From NCBI GenBank assembly GCA_016926475.1, contig JAFGON010000045.1, positions 1 through 18,944 of the forward strand: a DNA stretch of 18,944 nt, read 5' to 3'. Under the pieces are notes generated by a model that saw nothing but the letters and a program-made list of their open reading frames with translations, did not search any database and was not told the DNA's origin. Below are positions 8,081 through 16,715 of the stretch, piece after piece. Position 1 is the first letter of the stretch; each line of letters begins with the position of its first letter. This DNA is from a candidate division WOR-3 bacterium (GTDB taxonomy: Bacteria > SDB-A). The translations under genes and the position numbers were made by a program.

Positions 8081-8371
8081 TTATGCAATTGCTTTTGGTA
8101 TATCTTCCAACTCTTTTTTTAGCCGCTTCTTTTCTTTTCGCAGATCATACTCATCCTGGATACCTAACCAGAATTCAGCAGAATTTCCAAAATATTTGGA
8201 TAATCTTAATGCTGTGTCTGCTGTAATTCTTCGTTTTGCCTTTAATATTTGCGATACTCTCGTTGCCGGTATATGAGTATCTTTTGCAAGTTTATAAGCA
8301 CTGATATTTAAAGGAGAAAGAAATTCTTCAAATAAAATTTCTCCGGGTGTTACATCAGGTATTTTATTCAT
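8081..8371 (-). CDS. higA: HigA-family antitoxin (XRE helix-turn-helix)
   Basis: A 96-residue antitoxin of the HigA/VapI group. The N-terminus DVTPGEILFEEFL is the family hallmark. The helix-turn-helix spans about 23-60 (ISAYKLAKDTHIPATRVSQI), followed by FGNSAEFWLGIQDEYDLRK, also characteristic. It neutralises the HigB toxin encoded upstream and represses the operon by binding the promoter. AGGAGG lies 5 bases before the ATG and overlaps the toxin stop codon (TTAGGAGG), with 8 bases between the genes. The order is toxin first, as in other higBA loci. Length is normal for the family and all parts look intact. Confidence 0.93.
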   Translation of the reverse strand: MNKIPDVTPGEILFEEFLSPLNISAYKLAKDTHIPATRVSQILKAKRRITADTALRLSKYFGNSAEFWLGIQDEYDLRKEKKRLKKELEDIPKAIA

Positions 8372-8379
8372 AATTCCTC

Positions 8380-8661
8380 CTAATGATAATCTATAATTTC
8401 AACTTCTGATGCAATTCCATTTTTCCAGTTAAAACATATCCGCCATTGATTGTTAATCCGTATACTGTATTGACCCATCCTTTTTCCAGATAATATTTCA
8501 AGTTTATTACCTACTGGGATTCTTAAATCATTTAAATCTTTTGAACGGTGCAAGATAATTAACTTTCTATATCCAATTTTCTGGATATTTATAGGAAATC
8601 GCTTAGAATATTTCTGGTTCCAAATTTTTTCCGTTTCTTTATCTTTAAACGATCTAATCAC
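8380..8661 (-). CDS. higB: HigB-family toxin (RelE superfamily mRNA interferase)
   Basis: A 93-residue toxin beginning MIRSFKDKETEKIW and ending WRICFNWKNGIASEVEIIDY plus His, the usual HigB frame (family members begin MIKSFKxKGLE and end near DYH). HigB toxins cleave mRNA on the ribosome. The middle segment (LEILSGKRMGQYSIRINNQW) carries the basic residues expected near the active site. The start is a GTG without Shine-Dalgarno sequence; it is chosen because the family N-terminus begins exactly there and the promoter places the transcript start on it (see 8667-8695). Likely active and partnered by HigA downstream. Confidence 0.92.
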   Translation of the reverse strand: MIRSFKDKETEKIWNQKYSKRFPINIQKIGYRKLIILHRSKDLNDLRIPVGNKLEILSGKRMGQYSIRINNQWRICFNWKNGIASEVEIIDYH

Positions 8662-9251: not shown

Positions 9252-10724
9252 GTGAAAACTTTTCAAGTTATTGCTTTTTTTCTCCTGATTAGTGCTAATC
9301 AGTTGTTTCTTCAAAACCCGGACACTCTTTGGCTAAAGCATTACGGCGGGCCGCTGGGCGATTACGGAAATTCAATAGCACTGACGAATGACGGAGGTTT
9401 CGTTCTGGCAGGTTTTACTTTTTCTTATACTCCGAGTTTTTGTGACGCCTGGATTCTGAGGTTCGACAGTTCAGGAGAATTGTCATGGGACTCGACCTAC
9501 GGCTACGAATCCTACGATTACCCTGACGACATAATCCAGACATTTGACGGTGGATTCGCATTCGCTGGGACAAGCTGTCCGCCGGCAAATTATTACGGTG
9601 ATTTCTACATTGCAAAAATTTCCGGCGATGGCAACTTTCTCTGGGATCTTAGAATCGGCGACAGCCAGTGGGAGGAAGGCGCATCAGCTCTCCTTGAAAC
9701 TCAGGACAGCGAAATTGTAGCGGTTGGATTTACGTATTTTCAGACAGCGGGATTGTGCGACGCCTGGCTCGTCAGGATCGACAATGACGGCAACCTTCTC
9801 TGGGACTCCACTTACGGCGGATCAGGTTCGGAACTGCCGACTTGCATGGTTCAGAGCAACAGCGGAGATTTCGTAATTGCGGGACACAAGAAGCTGACAA
9901 GTTCATCCAATTCTATGGGTTGGTTTCTAATCATTGACCGGTACGGTGTCGTAACACACGAAAAAACATTTCCGGGAGCCCAAAGCGCCTGGTTTGAAAA
10001 CATAACCAGGACTCAAGACGGCTGTTACATTCTGGCCGGGACAATGGTTTCATCCACCAACGGCAAATTCGACGGATGGATAGTAAAAGTTGACTCTCAG
10101 GGCAACGAGATGTGGAGCAAAGTACTGGGCGGTCCGGAGAGCGACGACTTCTGGAGCGTTGAAGAACTGCCCGGCGGCGATCTTCTTTTGACGGGGACCA
10201 CATCTTCTTATCCTGCGAATTCAGCCGACGTCTGGATCGTCAGGACTGACAGCGCGGGAAATCAGATTTGGTCCTATTCCTTCGGAGGCGCCGAAATCGA
10301 CGAGGGTCACGACATCAAGGCCGTCACTTCAAGCATATTTTTAGTGACGGGGTCGTCCGAGACGTTCTGCAACGGAATATCCGATCTGATAGTCGCTAAA
10401 ATAACCGACGCGGTGACGATTGTCGAGGAAAATCCTTTACACGTTTTCTCACCGGAATTTCTGACCGTCTCTCCCAATCCTTTCAGAGGGTCGGCTCAAA
10501 TAGAGTTTTTTCTTAGAAATGAAGATGAAGTCCAGGTTTCAGTTCTGGACCTATCCGGGAGAATTGTTAAAATCATTTCAGATTGTACCTTGGGAAGCGG
10601 ATCTTTATATTTTTCCTGGGACGGCACAGACGAAACCGGAATGCCCGTCCATTCAGGGATTTATTTTTTGAACGTCATGACAGAAGAAAGCGCTGTGAGT
10701 GAGGAATTGATACTTATCAGATAA
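9252..10724 (+). CDS. Secreted seven-repeat beta-propeller-like protein with C-terminal sorting-like domain
   Basis: A 490-residue exported protein. Residues 1-20 are a signal peptide (MKTFQVIAFFLLISANQLF). Seven imperfect repeats of about 52 residues fill about 23-390; each has the pattern D/N-G-G-F-x-L-A-G-T, then D-A-W-I-x-R-x-D-x-x-G-N-x-x-W-x-x-x-Y-G-G. Seven such units suggest a seven-bladed propeller. Residues about 405-490 (SPNPFRGSAQIEFF ... GIYFLNV ... LILIR) match the FlgD-like / type IX-like C-terminal domain that targets proteins to export or surface attachment in FCB and related bacteria. The start is GTG because the overlapping ATG is followed at once by TGA; AAGGAGG lies 4 bases upstream. 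No catalytic motif was seen. Likely a surface or extracellular binding protein; the ligand is unknown. Confidence 0.85.
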   Translation: MKTFQVIAFFLLISANQLFLQNPDTLWLKHYGGPLGDYGNSIALTNDGGFVLAGFTFSYTPSFCDAWILRFDSSGELSWDSTYGYESYDYPDDIIQTFDGGFAFAGTSCPPANYYGDFYIAKISGDGNFLWDLRIGDSQWEEGASALLETQDSEIVAVGFTYFQTAGLCDAWLVRIDNDGNLLWDSTYGGSGSELPTCMVQSNSGDFVIAGHKKLTSSSNSMGWFLIIDRYGVVTHEKTFPGAQSAWFENITRTQDGCYILAGTMVSSTNGKFDGWIVKVDSQGNEMWSKVLGGPESDDFWSVEELPGGDLLLTGTTSSYPANSADVWIVRTDSAGNQIWSYSFGGAEIDEGHDIKAVTSSIFLVTGSSETFCNGISDLIVAKITDAVTIVEENPLHVFSPEFLTVSPNPFRGSAQIEFFLRNEDEVQVSVLDLSGRIVKIISDCTLGSGSLYFSWDGTDETGMPVHSGIYFLNVMTEESAVSEELILIR

Positions 10725-11341: not shown

Positions 11342-12739
11342 TCATCTTAGGACTGATATTTTTTCTGATCTCACTTCGCCCTGGGATTGTATTCTGACGT
11401 AATACATTCCGTTTTGAACTTCTTTCCCTTCGGTGTCCTTTCCATCCCAGTTCAGGCAATAATTTCCCTCATCGAGATAACTTTCAGCGAGAGTGATAAT
11501 TTTCTGTCCAGCGAGGTTGAAAATCTCAACTGTAGTTCTTCCGCCGGATAAAATCCCGAAAGATATCGCCAAGAAGTGTGACATAGGATTGGGGTAAACT
11601 GAATAAATAATGGGCGAAAATAAATCTTCTGTCTCTTCAACTCCTGTAGATGGAACCCACTTTGCGATAAAATCAGCGTTGGGGTTACCTCCGGCGTCCG
11701 TGAAAGCTCCACCGACGTAAATATCAGTTCCTGAAACGGCTATACTTAAAACATAATAATTCAAACCGCTCCCCAACGCCTCCCATGAAGACCCGTTCCA
11801 TTTTGCGATATAGTGGGCGTTTGGCACTCCCCCAGCGTTCGTGAAGATTCCTCCTACAAGTAAATCCGTACCGACCGCTTCCATATCGAAAACATAATTG
11901 TTCAGTCCGCCTCCTACCGATTGCCAGTTTTCCCCATCCCATCTGGCTATGTGGTCAGCGTCAGGATTGCCTCCGGCGTCTGTAAAATAACCGCCTATGT
12001 AAAGGATTGAGTCCCAAAAAACCATTTTACTAACAAAACTGTCTATAGGATTTCCTACAGTTTCCCATAAAGAACCGTTCCATCTCGCTATATAATCGGC
12101 ATCGGGATTGCCCCCGGCGTTAGAAAATGTCCCGCATGCATATACATCCGAGCCAGAAATGATTATATCTAAAACCAAACCATTCAAACCAGATCCAAGC
12201 GCTTCCCAAGAGGAACCGTTCCATTTTGCGATGTTATCAGCGTTGGGATTTCCTCCGGCGTTCGTAAATTCACCTCCGGCATAGATATCCGAACCTGAAA
12301 TTGCTATTGCCCACACTACTCCATTCAATCCTGTCCCGAGTGCTTCCCACGAAGATCCGTTCCATTTGGCTATGCAGTCAGCGTTGGGATTTCCTCCGGC
12401 GTTTGTGAAAACTCCGCCGACATAAACGCCGGTGCCTGAAACTTTTATCTCTACGGCATAAGAGTTAAGACTTGTCAGGGGAGACCAGGAAGTTCCATTC
12501 CAACTTGCAATATAATCTGCGGCAGGATAACCTCCGGCATTTGTAAACATACCACCTGCGTATAAGGTCGTGTTCATAAAATCCAAGGCATAGACGGTGG
12601 TGTCCAACCCTGTACCCAGCGCTTCCCATGTTCCATCAACCTGGGGTGAATAAAGAAGCGTCTCACTGTTTATAGCGCTGGAAACAGTCGGATTTGTAAA
12701 GAAAGACAGAACTGCTATTACAAAAGTGCAGGTTCCCAT
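11342..12739 (-). CDS. Secreted protein with seven 47-residue repeats and C-terminal sorting-like domain
   Basis: A 465-residue exported protein. The ATG at 12739 is chosen because AAGGAG lies 6 bases upstream; an upstream TTG would add eight residues. The signal peptide is MGTCTFVIAVLSFF and following residues. Seven near-identical units of 46-47 residues follow, with consensus SWEALGSGLNxxV-x-x-I-x-x-SGTDIYVGGxFTNAGG, then NPNADxIAKWNG. Such W/G-rich units probably form a seven-bladed propeller. The last about 85 residues (VYPNPMSHFLAISF ... GMYYVRIQ ... ISVLR) are a FlgD-like / type IX-like C-terminal domain, as in the protein at 9252. The gene is read towards that relative. No enzymatic motif. 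Function unknown; likely on the cell surface or released. Confidence 0.85.
   Translation of the reverse strand: MGTCTFVIAVLSFFTNPTVSSAINSETLLYSPQVDGTWEALGTGLDTTVYALDFMNTTLYAGGMFTNAGGYPAADYIASWNGTSWSPLTSLNSYAVEIKVSGTGVYVGGVFTNAGGNPNADCIAKWNGSSWEALGTGLNGVVWAIAISGSDIYAGGEFTNAGGNPNADNIAKWNGSSWEALGSGLNGLVLDIIISGSDVYACGTFSNAGGNPDADYIARWNGSLWETVGNPIDSFVSKMVFWDSILYIGGYFTDAGGNPDADHIARWDGENWQSVGGGLNNYVFDMEAVGTDLLVGGIFTNAGGVPNAHYIAKWNGSSWEALGSGLNYYVLSIAVSGTDIYVGGAFTDAGGNPNADFIAKWVPSTGVEETEDLFSPIIYSVYPNPMSHFLAISFGILSGGRTTVEIFNLAGQKIITLAESYLDEGNYCLNWDGKDTEGKEVQNGMYYVRIQSQGEVRSEKISVLR
11657..12631 (-). repeat. Seven tandem about 141-bp coding repeats
   Basis: The DNA encoding the seven 46-47-residue units is visibly repeated, with phrases such as TTGGGATTTCCTCCGGCGTT (plus-strand reading) recurring at regular spacing. 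Units 3, 4, 6 and 7 are most alike; unit 5 is the most divergent (LWETVGNPIDSF). One unit (the second) is one codon shorter. High nucleotide likeness points to recent duplication or gene conversion between units. Confidence 0.8.
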
Positions 12740-12873
12740 TTTAAACTCCTTTTTTTTAAACAAAAATAGTAATCCTATGGCGTTAAAAAAACATTAAATG
12801 CCTCATTTTAGTCCCGCTTTTTTTCATTTCTGCTGCCAAAAACCGCACTCCTTGTAATATTTTTCGGAAGTAA

Positions 12874-14731: not shown

Positions 14732-15448
14732 TCATCTTTTTTTTGTGGGGTAATTTTCCCGGGCGAACCTGTAAGCTTCGGGAGTGTCTATGTCTATCCA
14801 GGATTCGCCTTCTTCCATAAATACGGCATCCATGTTTTTTTGTTCTATAAGTTTCTGGATTCCCGCACTTATTGATTCATTTCCTCTGTTTACCTGAAAA
14901 GCCATGGCGTCAAAAAAACTTTTCGCCAATCTGAAGACGCCGCAGTCCAAGCAGTTGTAATTTTTAATTTCTTTTCCTATATCGATGATTCTATTCTTCT
15001 CGGTCAGCACTTTTGTCGCGTCGTCTATGTCGAAGTTTTTGTCAACTTTTTTATCTACTAGTAAAAGGTTTTTATTACAGTCTGAATTTACGACCCGGCT
15101 TATTGCCCACGGATCGACTATGTGATCCGACATGCTTAAAATGAAATTTTCTTCACCGACGGCTTCTTTGGCCTTGAGAACTGATATTCCGTTTCCCCTG
15201 TTGAATTCGTCGTTGATAACTGTCGTCGATTTAAAACCGAAGGATTTATTGTTTTCAATATAGTCAACAATCATTTCAGACTTAAATCCGAGGACGAAAA
15301 CAAATTCCCGTGCGCCGGCACAGGCAATGTTGTGCATAATTGTAGATAAAATAGTGCCTTTTCCAAAAGGAAGGAGAGTCTTCGGTGTCTTGTTTGTCTC
15401 AGGCCATAGGCGACTGCTGTTTCCCGCCGCTATTATGACGGCCTTCAT
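14732..15448 (-). CDS. Sugar/polyol-phosphate cytidylyltransferase, inositol-1-phosphate cytidylyltransferase-like
   Basis: A 238-residue nucleotidyltransferase. The N-terminal signature is KAVIIAAGNSSRL followed by KTPKTLLPFGKG. The rest tracks inositol-1-phosphate cytidylyltransferase (IPCT, first step of di-myo-inositol-phosphate synthesis in hyperthermophiles) better than sugar pyrophosphorylases: FNRGNGISVLKAKEAV (about 82-97), FILSMSDHIV (Asp108 metal ligand), DDATKV (142-147), IDIGKEIKNYNCLDCGVF (155-172) and SWIDIDTPEAY with the second metal Asp. The probable reaction is CTP plus a polyol phosphate giving a CDP-polyol and pyrophosphate. The CDP-alcohol phosphatidyltransferase domain fused to IPCT in some organisms is absent. 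It follows the glycerophosphotransferase-like gene by 12 bases, so one operon is likely. Nucleotidyltransferase is certain; inositol specificity is inference. Confidence 0.8.
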   Translation of the reverse strand: MKAVIIAAGNSSRLWPETNKTPKTLLPFGKGTILSTIMHNIACAGAREFVFVLGFKSEMIVDYIENNKSFGFKSTTVINDEFNRGNGISVLKAKEAVGEENFILSMSDHIVDPWAISRVVNSDCNKNLLLVDKKVDKNFDIDDATKVLTEKNRIIDIGKEIKNYNCLDCGVFRLAKSFFDAMAFQVNRGNESISAGIQKLIEQKNMDAVFMEEGESWIDIDTPEAYRFARENYPTKKR

Positions 15449-15460
15449 ATTTTCACCGCA

Positions 15461-16576
15461 TTACTTGGGAATATTCTCATGTCCGCCTTCCTGGAAAAGT
15501 TGTTCCATTTTTATAACAAATCGTTCCGAGGCTTTTCCGTCGAGTTTATAGAAAAGTTTTTGCCTGTATTCGTCCGCCAGTTGTTTCATCTCCTTTGTAG
15601 GATCGAGCGCTCTTTCTATGGCTGAACATATATCTTTACCTCTGTCGACGTGGACGAAAGCACCTTTCAGAAACTCGCGATTGTCAATCTCGAGAAGAGG
15701 TTCGCCGTCGGAATGGTTGAGGCGTTCGCACGGCAGGTCGTAGACAATGCCGAATTTATTGAGGGCGAGAAAATCGAAAACAGTGCTCGATGCCTCGCTT
15801 ATGAGAGTGTCTGCAACAGCGTAAAAAGGAACTATGCTGTAGGATTCAAACGGCAGTAAAACCGCGTGGCTGTACTTTTTTACACGGTCCTCGTAAATCC
15901 TGTGCTGTTTGTGCGGGGCGTATTTTCCCATCCAGCTGTAGGGGTGAAGTTTGACAATCAGGTTGTAATCACGGGTCTGATCAAAAAGATCGTCTTTTAA
16001 ATAATACAGGGACGTCGGTTTGTAAGTAGGCGCGTAGACAACGGTTTTTTTTGACGGGTCAAGTCCCAAATCTTTAAGAATCTTTTCCCTGTCGCTGAAT
16101 TTACCCTGAAAATAATAATCTAATTTGGGAAGGCCGACGAGATGGATCTCGTTTTTACCAAGGCGCCCGGAATTTCGGAGTGAATCGACTCTGTGTTGCC
16201 CTTCGACGAATATCTGGTACTTTTGGTCTGACACTTTTGCCAATTCTCTGTAGAGAATATTCTTTATGCCGGTTCCGTGGTTTAAAAAACAGAGTATTGT
16301 TTTTCCGTAATCGGGTGCGTTTTTGAGCGTGTCGCCCGTAATGATTATGTCAAAACCTTTTGTCTCCCCGGTGAATCTGTAACCGCGTTCTTTCCATTCT
16401 TCAATGATCGGCTGTTGATATGGGACATCGAAAAGGAAGAACTTGCGCTTTTTTTCCATGTCGAGAGTAAAAAAAACGTCGTATTTATTGTTGTCTATGA
16501 GCAGATCGATGACGGGATCGAAAGCCGCCTTGTGGTAGGCATAACCTATTTTAAATAACAATTTTATTTTTGGCAT
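15461..16576 (-). CDS. CDP-glycerol glycerophosphotransferase-family protein
   Basis: A 371-residue GT-B-fold enzyme of the family (PF04464-like) that moves glycerol phosphate or related polyol phosphates from a CDP carrier to an acceptor, as in teichoic acid synthesis. Motifs in order: FLNHGTGIKNI (His100, Gly101, Lys105; the family HGTxxK site), HLVGLPKLDYY (145-155), VVYAPTYKPTS, LIVKLHPYSW (His211), then ADTLISEASSTVFDFLAL (Glu261, Ser263, Ser264) for nucleotide-phosphate binding. There is no signal peptide or membrane helix; such enzymes act at the inner membrane face. The ATG at 16576 is used; a TTG at 16588 would add four residues. Neither has a good ribosome site. Operon with the cytidylyltransferase downstream, which probably makes its CDP donor. 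Confidence 0.8.
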   Translation of the reverse strand: MPKIKLLFKIGYAYHKAAFDPVIDLLIDNNKYDVFFTLDMEKKRKFFLFDVPYQQPIIEEWKERGYRFTGETKGFDIIITGDTLKNAPDYGKTILCFLNHGTGIKNILYRELAKVSDQKYQIFVEGQHRVDSLRNSGRLGKNEIHLVGLPKLDYYFQGKFSDREKILKDLGLDPSKKTVVYAPTYKPTSLYYLKDDLFDQTRDYNLIVKLHPYSWMGKYAPHKQHRIYEDRVKKYSHAVLLPFESYSIVPFYAVADTLISEASSTVFDFLALNKFGIVYDLPCERLNHSDGEPLLEIDNREFLKGAFVHVDRGKDICSAIERALDPTKEMKQLADEYRQKLFYKLDGKASERFVIKMEQLFQEGGHENIPK

Positions 16577-16715
16577 TTTTCTGTTCAATTTCGTCGTGAA
16601 TCATAGCAATTAGAATATATATGGATTAGTTTTATCAAAAATATAGAAAAAATGCTAAATGTTTTGATACTGGTTTCAAATCTCTTCAATCATAATAAAA
16701 TCATCTGAGTGTTTT

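Follow-up and report, generated by a model that had tools for sequence, protein, structure and literature searches.

The CTP:inositol-1-phosphate cytidylyltransferases (IPCTs) characterised so far all serve, to our knowledge, the synthesis of di-myo-inositol phosphate. In TagF, H444 and H584 are catalytic (PMC5974469), and in the cytidylyltransferase CpgD, N90 and T93 bind ribose and cytosine, and the glycerate is contacted by N110, two positions before the catalytic D112, and, through water, by S170 (PMC13228409). A search of titles and abstracts, with most subscription journals outside its scope, returned no work joining CDP-inositol to a TagF-type transferase, which speaks weakly for novelty. 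Here, we describe two adjacent genes that combine an IPCT-like cytidylyltransferase with a TagF-fold transferase in the window, i.e., the whole stretch of 18,944 nucleotides from a candidate division WOR-3 bacterium that was analysed. Our reading, to which we give a probability of roughly 0.6, is that inositol-1-phosphate from its synthase (MIPS) is converted to CDP-inositol and that phosphoinositol is then placed on a surface glycan, probably the LPS core.

Layout of the gene pair

The initial annotation described two open reading frames 12 bases apart; both are present in the sequence on the minus strand, the cytidylyltransferase gene downstream of the transferase gene (Table 1). The short gap is consistent with a single transcript for both genes. 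We took ATG at 16576 as the transferase start because homologues begin at this position; TTG at 16588 is a possible alternative. The pair stands alone in the window, since its neighbours are genes for a ZIP transporter, an acetyltransferase, and hypothetical proteins or hydrolases, and no glycan genes were found among them.

Table 1. Positions of the gene pair and of other features in the window, the same genome, and related loci.
Feature	Position	Strand	Evidence or remark
TagF-type (PF04464) phosphotransferase, 371 aa, first gene of pair	window 15461..16576	-	ORF, Pfam, AlphaFold model
IPCT-like cytidylyltransferase, 238 aa, monofunctional, second gene of pair	window 14732..15448	-	PF00483, residues, tree, model
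12-base intergenic gap	window 15449..15460	-	sequence
Two small adjoining genes, 93 and 96 aa	window 8081-8661	-	HigB/HigA toxin-antitoxin-like
Secreted repeat protein	window 9252-10724	+	C-terminal end like that of the next protein; sorting- or FlgD-like domain
Secreted repeat protein	window 11342-12763	-	C-terminal end like that of the previous protein; sorting- or FlgD-like domain
PIP-synthase-like CDP-alcohol phosphotransferase	C27:31295-31732 (L009 7218-7844)		beside MIPS
Transferase relative with cytidylyltransferase-aminotransferase fusion	L018 1-2592		genome G002
Transferase-MIPS	L035		truncated frame
Transferase-MIPS-cytidylyltransferase	L037		
MIPS-transferase-cytidylyltransferase	L040, L041, L043, L045, L047		L041 with assembly gap
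Decayed MIPS C-terminal remnant	L064 3381-3563	+	third forward frame
IPCT-like gene next to MIPS remnant	L064 3572-4321		

The cytidylyltransferase carries IPCT-type residues

The cytidylyltransferase matches PF00483 with 66.8 bits, far above the cut-off. Its top PDB sequence match is the IPCT 2xme (E 4e-22; profile 5e-35), and the closest solved structures by sequence are the IPCTs of Archaeoglobus (2XME) and Thermotoga (4JD0). Against NCBIfam NF041135, a model of 419 positions that includes the DIPP synthase domain, it scores 128 bits (cut-off 580). The catalytic R, K, and D of the NTP-transferase fold (R13, K23, and D108) are invariant. So are N86 and S89 across 43 window-type sequences; both are the same in 2XME and 4JD0, whereas sugar enzymes have T/I and A/G at these positions, and by comparison with CpgD they would form a cytosine-type base site. 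The window enzyme is identical to both solved IPCTs at D140, A144, K146, G158, K159, D168, G170, and F172, six of which differ in PntC; residue 145 is T or S, and M106 and H109 agree with the Archaeoglobus IPCT only. For the most part, enzymes for phosphocholine, phosphonate, and hexose phosphates do not have the IPCT-type residues.

The AlphaFold model (pLDDT 94.8) has the IPCT 4JD0 as its top fold match (Z 29.1), with PntC close behind (28.9) and IPCT, PntC, and GalU-type structures all at Z 27-29. The structure comparison proposed in the initial annotation thus places an IPCT first but leaves the substrate undecided, and because fold comparison alone does not separate substrates, we judged the substrate from the residues and the tree. 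In the maximum-likelihood tree, a 99/98 branch lies between the window enzyme on one side and, on the other, 2GGO, a sugar nucleotidyltransferase, and the RmlA-like enzyme of the same genome; the genome's HddC/MurU-like enzyme is a very long branch without placement. LicC, PntC, and the cytidylyltransferases of distant transferase relatives form a 98/92 clade that does not include the window enzyme. 2XME and 4JD0 lie outside the sugar and LicC/PntC groups and not inside the window clade, beside which their branching is unsupported; 4JD0 is a long branch. We rejected a hexose-1-phosphate nucleotidyltransferase identity on the 99/98 branch and the residues, and a LicC/PntC substrate identity on the 98/92 clade and the residues. 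The placement with hexose-1-phosphate enzymes, which the initial annotation had named beforehand as refuting its call, did not occur, and the view that the enzyme is more IPCT-like is supported by its residues and by solved IPCTs as its top sequence matches. Synthesis of CDP-inositol (CTP + inositol-1-phosphate -> CDP-inositol + PPi) is a well-supported prediction for this enzyme.

A different small phosphate could be activated instead (phosphoglycerate, as by CpgD, glycerol phosphate, or another polyol phosphate), with the transferase adding that group. CpgD is related to the IPCTs (24% identity to 4JD0), but its substrate is phosphoglycerate (PMC12275187); homology by itself is thus no sure guide to the substrate. 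When matched to CpgD by motif position, however, the window enzyme has M106 at the position two ahead of D108 and has D168 close to the second site, which agrees with the A. fulgidus IPCT, and another phosphate would leave the MIPS linkage described below without explanation. We consider this alternative quite unlikely and prefer CDP-inositol as the product.

The transferase has the fold of the TagF catalytic domain

The transferase matches PF04464 with 65 bits (cut-off 22.1), the match covering its C-terminal half only. Its AlphaFold model (pLDDT 93.8) aligns from end to end with the catalytic domain of TagF (3L7K, residues 351-722; Z 26.2, rmsd 3.3, 323 residues), followed in the fold ranking by TagF-like capsule enzymes and TarL, above UDP-GlcNAc 2-epimerases (best 22.6). 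In 46 relatives, both H100 and H211 are conserved without exception; H211 aligns with the KMHP-motif histidine of TarL, and H100 would correspond to TagF H444. The label "CDP-glycerol glycerophosphotransferase-like" given to this gene stands as far as the TagF-type family is concerned, on PF04464 and the fold, but probably not for the glycerol donor, in whose place CDP-inositol is likely. From sequence and model, we predict a CDP-inositol-dependent phosphoinositol transferase.

TagF and TarL share this fold and are polymerases, and the transferase might likewise build a teichoic-acid-like poly(inositol phosphate) chain. It consists, however, of a single domain of 371 aa, without the N-terminal region that precedes the catalytic domain in TagF (729 aa); same-fold capsule polymerases (>1,000 aa) also carry further domains, and no exporter or capsule cluster is present within the window. 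We hold a polymerase to be the least probable of the explanations weighed here. Since the transferase is not extended by any further domain, a single addition or a few would be likelier than a long polymer.

The pair is kept together across phyla

A scan of genomes of GTDB species yielded 80 loci with transferase relatives, in Calditrichota, Cloacimonadota, Zixibacteria, KSB1, Krumholzibacteriota, Gemmatimonadota, Delongbacteria, Eisenbacteria, WOR-3, Fibrobacterota, Marinimicrobia, and others. An IPCT-like enzyme is encoded within 400 bases of the transferase on the same strand in 30 loci and in the two pairs of the window's own genome; in the 30 loci, the cytidylyltransferase is downstream in 24 and upstream in 6. 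Paired loci occur in at least 10 phyla, and the gap or overlap is of similar size in most relatives (a value of -508 at L050 is an artefact of an over-extended reading frame). Shared function can be argued because gene order changes while adjacency is kept.

The second pair in the genome (2.15 Mb, 106 contigs) is paralogous and located on contig C82, where the genes have the same order, a 4-base overlap, and 82% (transferase) and 61% (cytidylyltransferase) identity to those of the window. The two transferases are the only PF04464 genes in the genome. No glycan genes were found near the C82 pair, which may serve another acceptor or another position. Given this paralogous pair and the pairing in 30 further loci, the association goes beyond chance. 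The idea of a donor-making and a donor-using enzyme, put forward in the initial annotation, is supported by the IPCT-type residues, the TagF fold, and the pairing in at least 10 phyla.

Conservation does not extend to the nearest relatives. One genome of the same genus (G001) has no transferase, and a family-level relative (G003) has a transferase without a cytidylyltransferase. Another genome of the genus (G002) encodes a 39% transferase relative that overlaps by 4 bases with a PntC-AEPT-like cytidylyltransferase-aminotransferase fusion, which suggests aminoethylphosphonate as the head group there. Among outside relatives, a locus of Krumholzibacteriota is the nearest (transferase 81% identical), and this, together with the patchy distribution among close relatives, makes horizontal transfer or repeated loss likely. 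The gene pair, whose conservation in related genomes was to be checked, is thus kept among phyla, in both orders, but not among the closest genomes; the lack of conservation that the initial annotation had named as refuting was not observed.

Transferase relatives of other clades adjoin LicC/PntC-like cytidylyltransferases, TagD-like and LicD genes, or a fusion of cytidylyltransferase and PEP mutase; this fusion is accompanied by a TPP enzyme and an iron alcohol dehydrogenase, a set that recalls phosphonate synthesis. Such neighbourhoods agree with a single transferase family whose head group varies. Four Marinimicrobia loci (L073, L076, L077, and L078) have transferase relatives by a TagD-like/PEP mutase fusion, a phosphonopyruvate decarboxylase-like TPP enzyme, an iron alcohol dehydrogenase, and LicD-like genes; they are likely phosphonate decoration clusters, and their genomes have no MIPS.

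MIPS genes cluster with the pair in some loci

We found MIPS in the same gene cluster as the transferase in seven loci from two phyla, in three arrangements (Table 1). PF07994 and PF01658 confirm four of the seven, and sequence similarity covers all seven; by our estimate, chance would give well under one such case. The inositol reading thereby gains evidence beyond that available to the initial annotation. Among genomes with an IPCT-type partner, 34 of 36 have MIPS, compared with 5 of 13 in which the partner is a different cytidylyltransferase (Fisher p 1e-4, rows not independent); the figures are 43 of 98 for background genomes and 30 of 32 for searchable closest-relative genomes. A phylogenetic sign test of the association, which had only two to three independent contrasts and no power, was not significant. 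In a locus from a third phylum (L064), a decayed MIPS remnant lies downstream of an MsbA-like gene and is directly followed by an IPCT-like gene; the genome as a whole gave no match to MIPS.

The genome search for inositol-1-phosphate synthase proposed earlier found MIPS on contig C27, apart from the pair (523 bits to the inositol-3-phosphate synthase model). It adjoins the only CDP-alcohol phosphotransferase of the genome, which probably uses a lipid CDP donor, as it scores 133 bits against archaetidylinositol-phosphate synthase and 113 against PIP synthase versus 58 against the IPCT/DIPP synthase model. No further PF01066 gene of PgsA or PssA type was found in the genome, and because its sole PF01066 gene is PIP-synthase-like and beside MIPS, inositol lipids may be a main phospholipid of the host. 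MIPS may here serve phosphatidylinositol; since it adjoins the PIP-synthase-like gene, and since G001 has MIPS without the pair, its presence is permissive and no proof of the inositol link.

This arrangement bears on the possibility that the product of the cytidylyltransferase goes into the synthesis of di-myo-inositol phosphate or phosphatidylinositol and that the role of the neighbouring transferase is unrelated, for which the adjoining MIPS and CDP-alcohol phosphotransferase genes could be cited, as could the role of the characterised IPCTs. The probable lipid donor of that phosphotransferase speaks against it, and close pairing in at least 10 phyla, whichever gene comes first, weighs against adjacency by mere chance; we regard it as highly improbable. 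Di-myo-inositol-phosphate synthesis in particular was judged unlikely, the sole CDP-alcohol phosphotransferase being PIP-synthase-like. No CDP-alcohol phosphotransferase domain of the IPCT/DIPP synthase type was found in either gene of the pair, and a pathway distinct from di-myo-inositol-phosphate synthesis, as first suggested, is the favoured reading.

LPS-type neighbours suggest a role at the cell surface

Of the 37 loci that include an IPCT-like partner, 12 have LPS-type genes (heptosyltransferase-type GT9, MsbA-like, or GT2/GT4) in the same-strand stretch; in the remaining two thirds or so, and in the window, this stretch is without glycan genes. In L037 and L038, heptosyltransferase II exceeds its curated cut-off; the MsbA-like genes score 500-529 bits, below the cut-off of 602. 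LpxC was found in the window's own genome. Because GT9, MsbA-like, and other GT genes lie near the pair in other genomes, the LPS core or a related glycolipid is the most likely acceptor. Of the "decoration or polymer" on a Gram-negative-type surface that the initial annotation envisaged, decoration is favoured by these neighbours and polymer disfavoured by the single domain.

With the same CDP-inositol donor, the acceptor could instead be a lipid (diacylglycerol, ceramide, or a glycolipid), which would make the pair a soluble-enzyme version of the CDP-inositol lipid route that has been put forward for some Bacteroidetes. CDP-inositol-dependent inositol lipids have been proposed (PMC9246714), as has a TagF-like donor logic for ceramide diphosphoglycerate in Caulobacter (PMC12275187), and the many pairs standing apart from glycan genes agree with this. 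Yet the known CDP-inositol lipid routes rely on a membrane CDP-alcohol phosphatidyltransferase and not on a TagF fold, the genome already has a PIP-synthase-like enzyme beside MIPS, and LPS-type genes recur beside the pair. A lipid acceptor is in our view unlikely, and we favour the LPS core or a related glycolipid.

In the favoured pathway, MIPS on contig C27 would make inositol-1-phosphate, which the cytidylyltransferase would join with CTP to give CDP-inositol, a step strongly supported by homology and context. The TagF-fold enzyme would then move inositol phosphate from CDP-inositol to an acceptor hydroxyl with release of CMP, using the two conserved histidines typical of the fold. Transfer would take place at the inner membrane, on its cytoplasmic side, most likely onto a growing LPS core or related glycolipid that MsbA, to judge from neighbouring genes elsewhere, would afterwards export. 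More tentatively, and at somewhat less than even odds, the pair may belong to a widespread undescribed surface-modification system. In it, TagF-fold transferases of many uncultured phyla of the Gram-negative type would decorate the LPS core or a related glycan of the outer membrane, and the head group would have been switched via the cytidylyltransferase partner (inositol phosphate in the window clade; in related clades, phosphonate, LicC-like, or TagD-like).

If correct, this would be a third use of CDP-inositol, surface glycan decoration, besides compatible solutes and inositol lipids, and it would employ a fold hitherto linked with teichoic acids and capsules. Many little-known phyla would then possess a new type of anionic group on their surface, and the presence of MIPS in some of these bacteria would be accounted for. 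The finding would also suggest that the transferase family changes its head group together with its cytidylyltransferase partner. The enzyme pair would also be available for making phosphoinositol glycans.

Comparison with known systems

The cytidylyltransferase shares with the IPCTs of A. fulgidus (2XME) and T. maritima (4JD0) the fold, the catalytic R, K, and D, the cytosine-type N and S, and the residues of the substrate half. It differs in sequence (~25-30% identity), in being a stand-alone enzyme, and in having a TagF-fold partner instead of a DIPP synthase domain. The transferase in turn has, like the TagF/TarL/TagB type (PF04464), the TagF catalytic-domain fold (Z 26.2) and conserved histidines, of which H211 aligns with that of the TarL KMHP motif, but shows ~13% identity, has a single domain and an IPCT-like partner instead of TagD, and occurs in LPS-type genomes. 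Gram-negative capsule polymerases (PMC5974469; 8QOY Cps3D) likewise place a TagF-like domain in the making of a Gram-negative surface glycan, yet those of PMC5974469 are multi-domain proteins that transfer glycerol phosphate or hexose phosphate, and inositol is absent from that paper.

Several functionally related routes resemble the pair in their logic. In the lic and pnt pathways, with LicC/LicD and PntC (PMC6697681), the head group, a small phosphate or phosphonate, is likewise activated by a cytidylyltransferase before being placed on a surface glycan, but the cytidylyltransferase subfamily and the head group are different, and the LicD-type transferases belong to PF04991. The proposed CDP-glycerate route of Caulobacter (PMC12275187) follows the same logic. 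The putative CDP-inositol lipid cluster of Bacteroides vulgatus and Prevotella (PMC9246714) also combines MIPS with a nucleotidyltransferase, the proposed source of CDP-inositol, and its host is likewise Gram-negative; it acts on lipids through a CDP-alcohol phosphatidyltransferase and a HAD hydrolase, whereas the pair described here has a TagF-fold enzyme, which that cluster does not contain.
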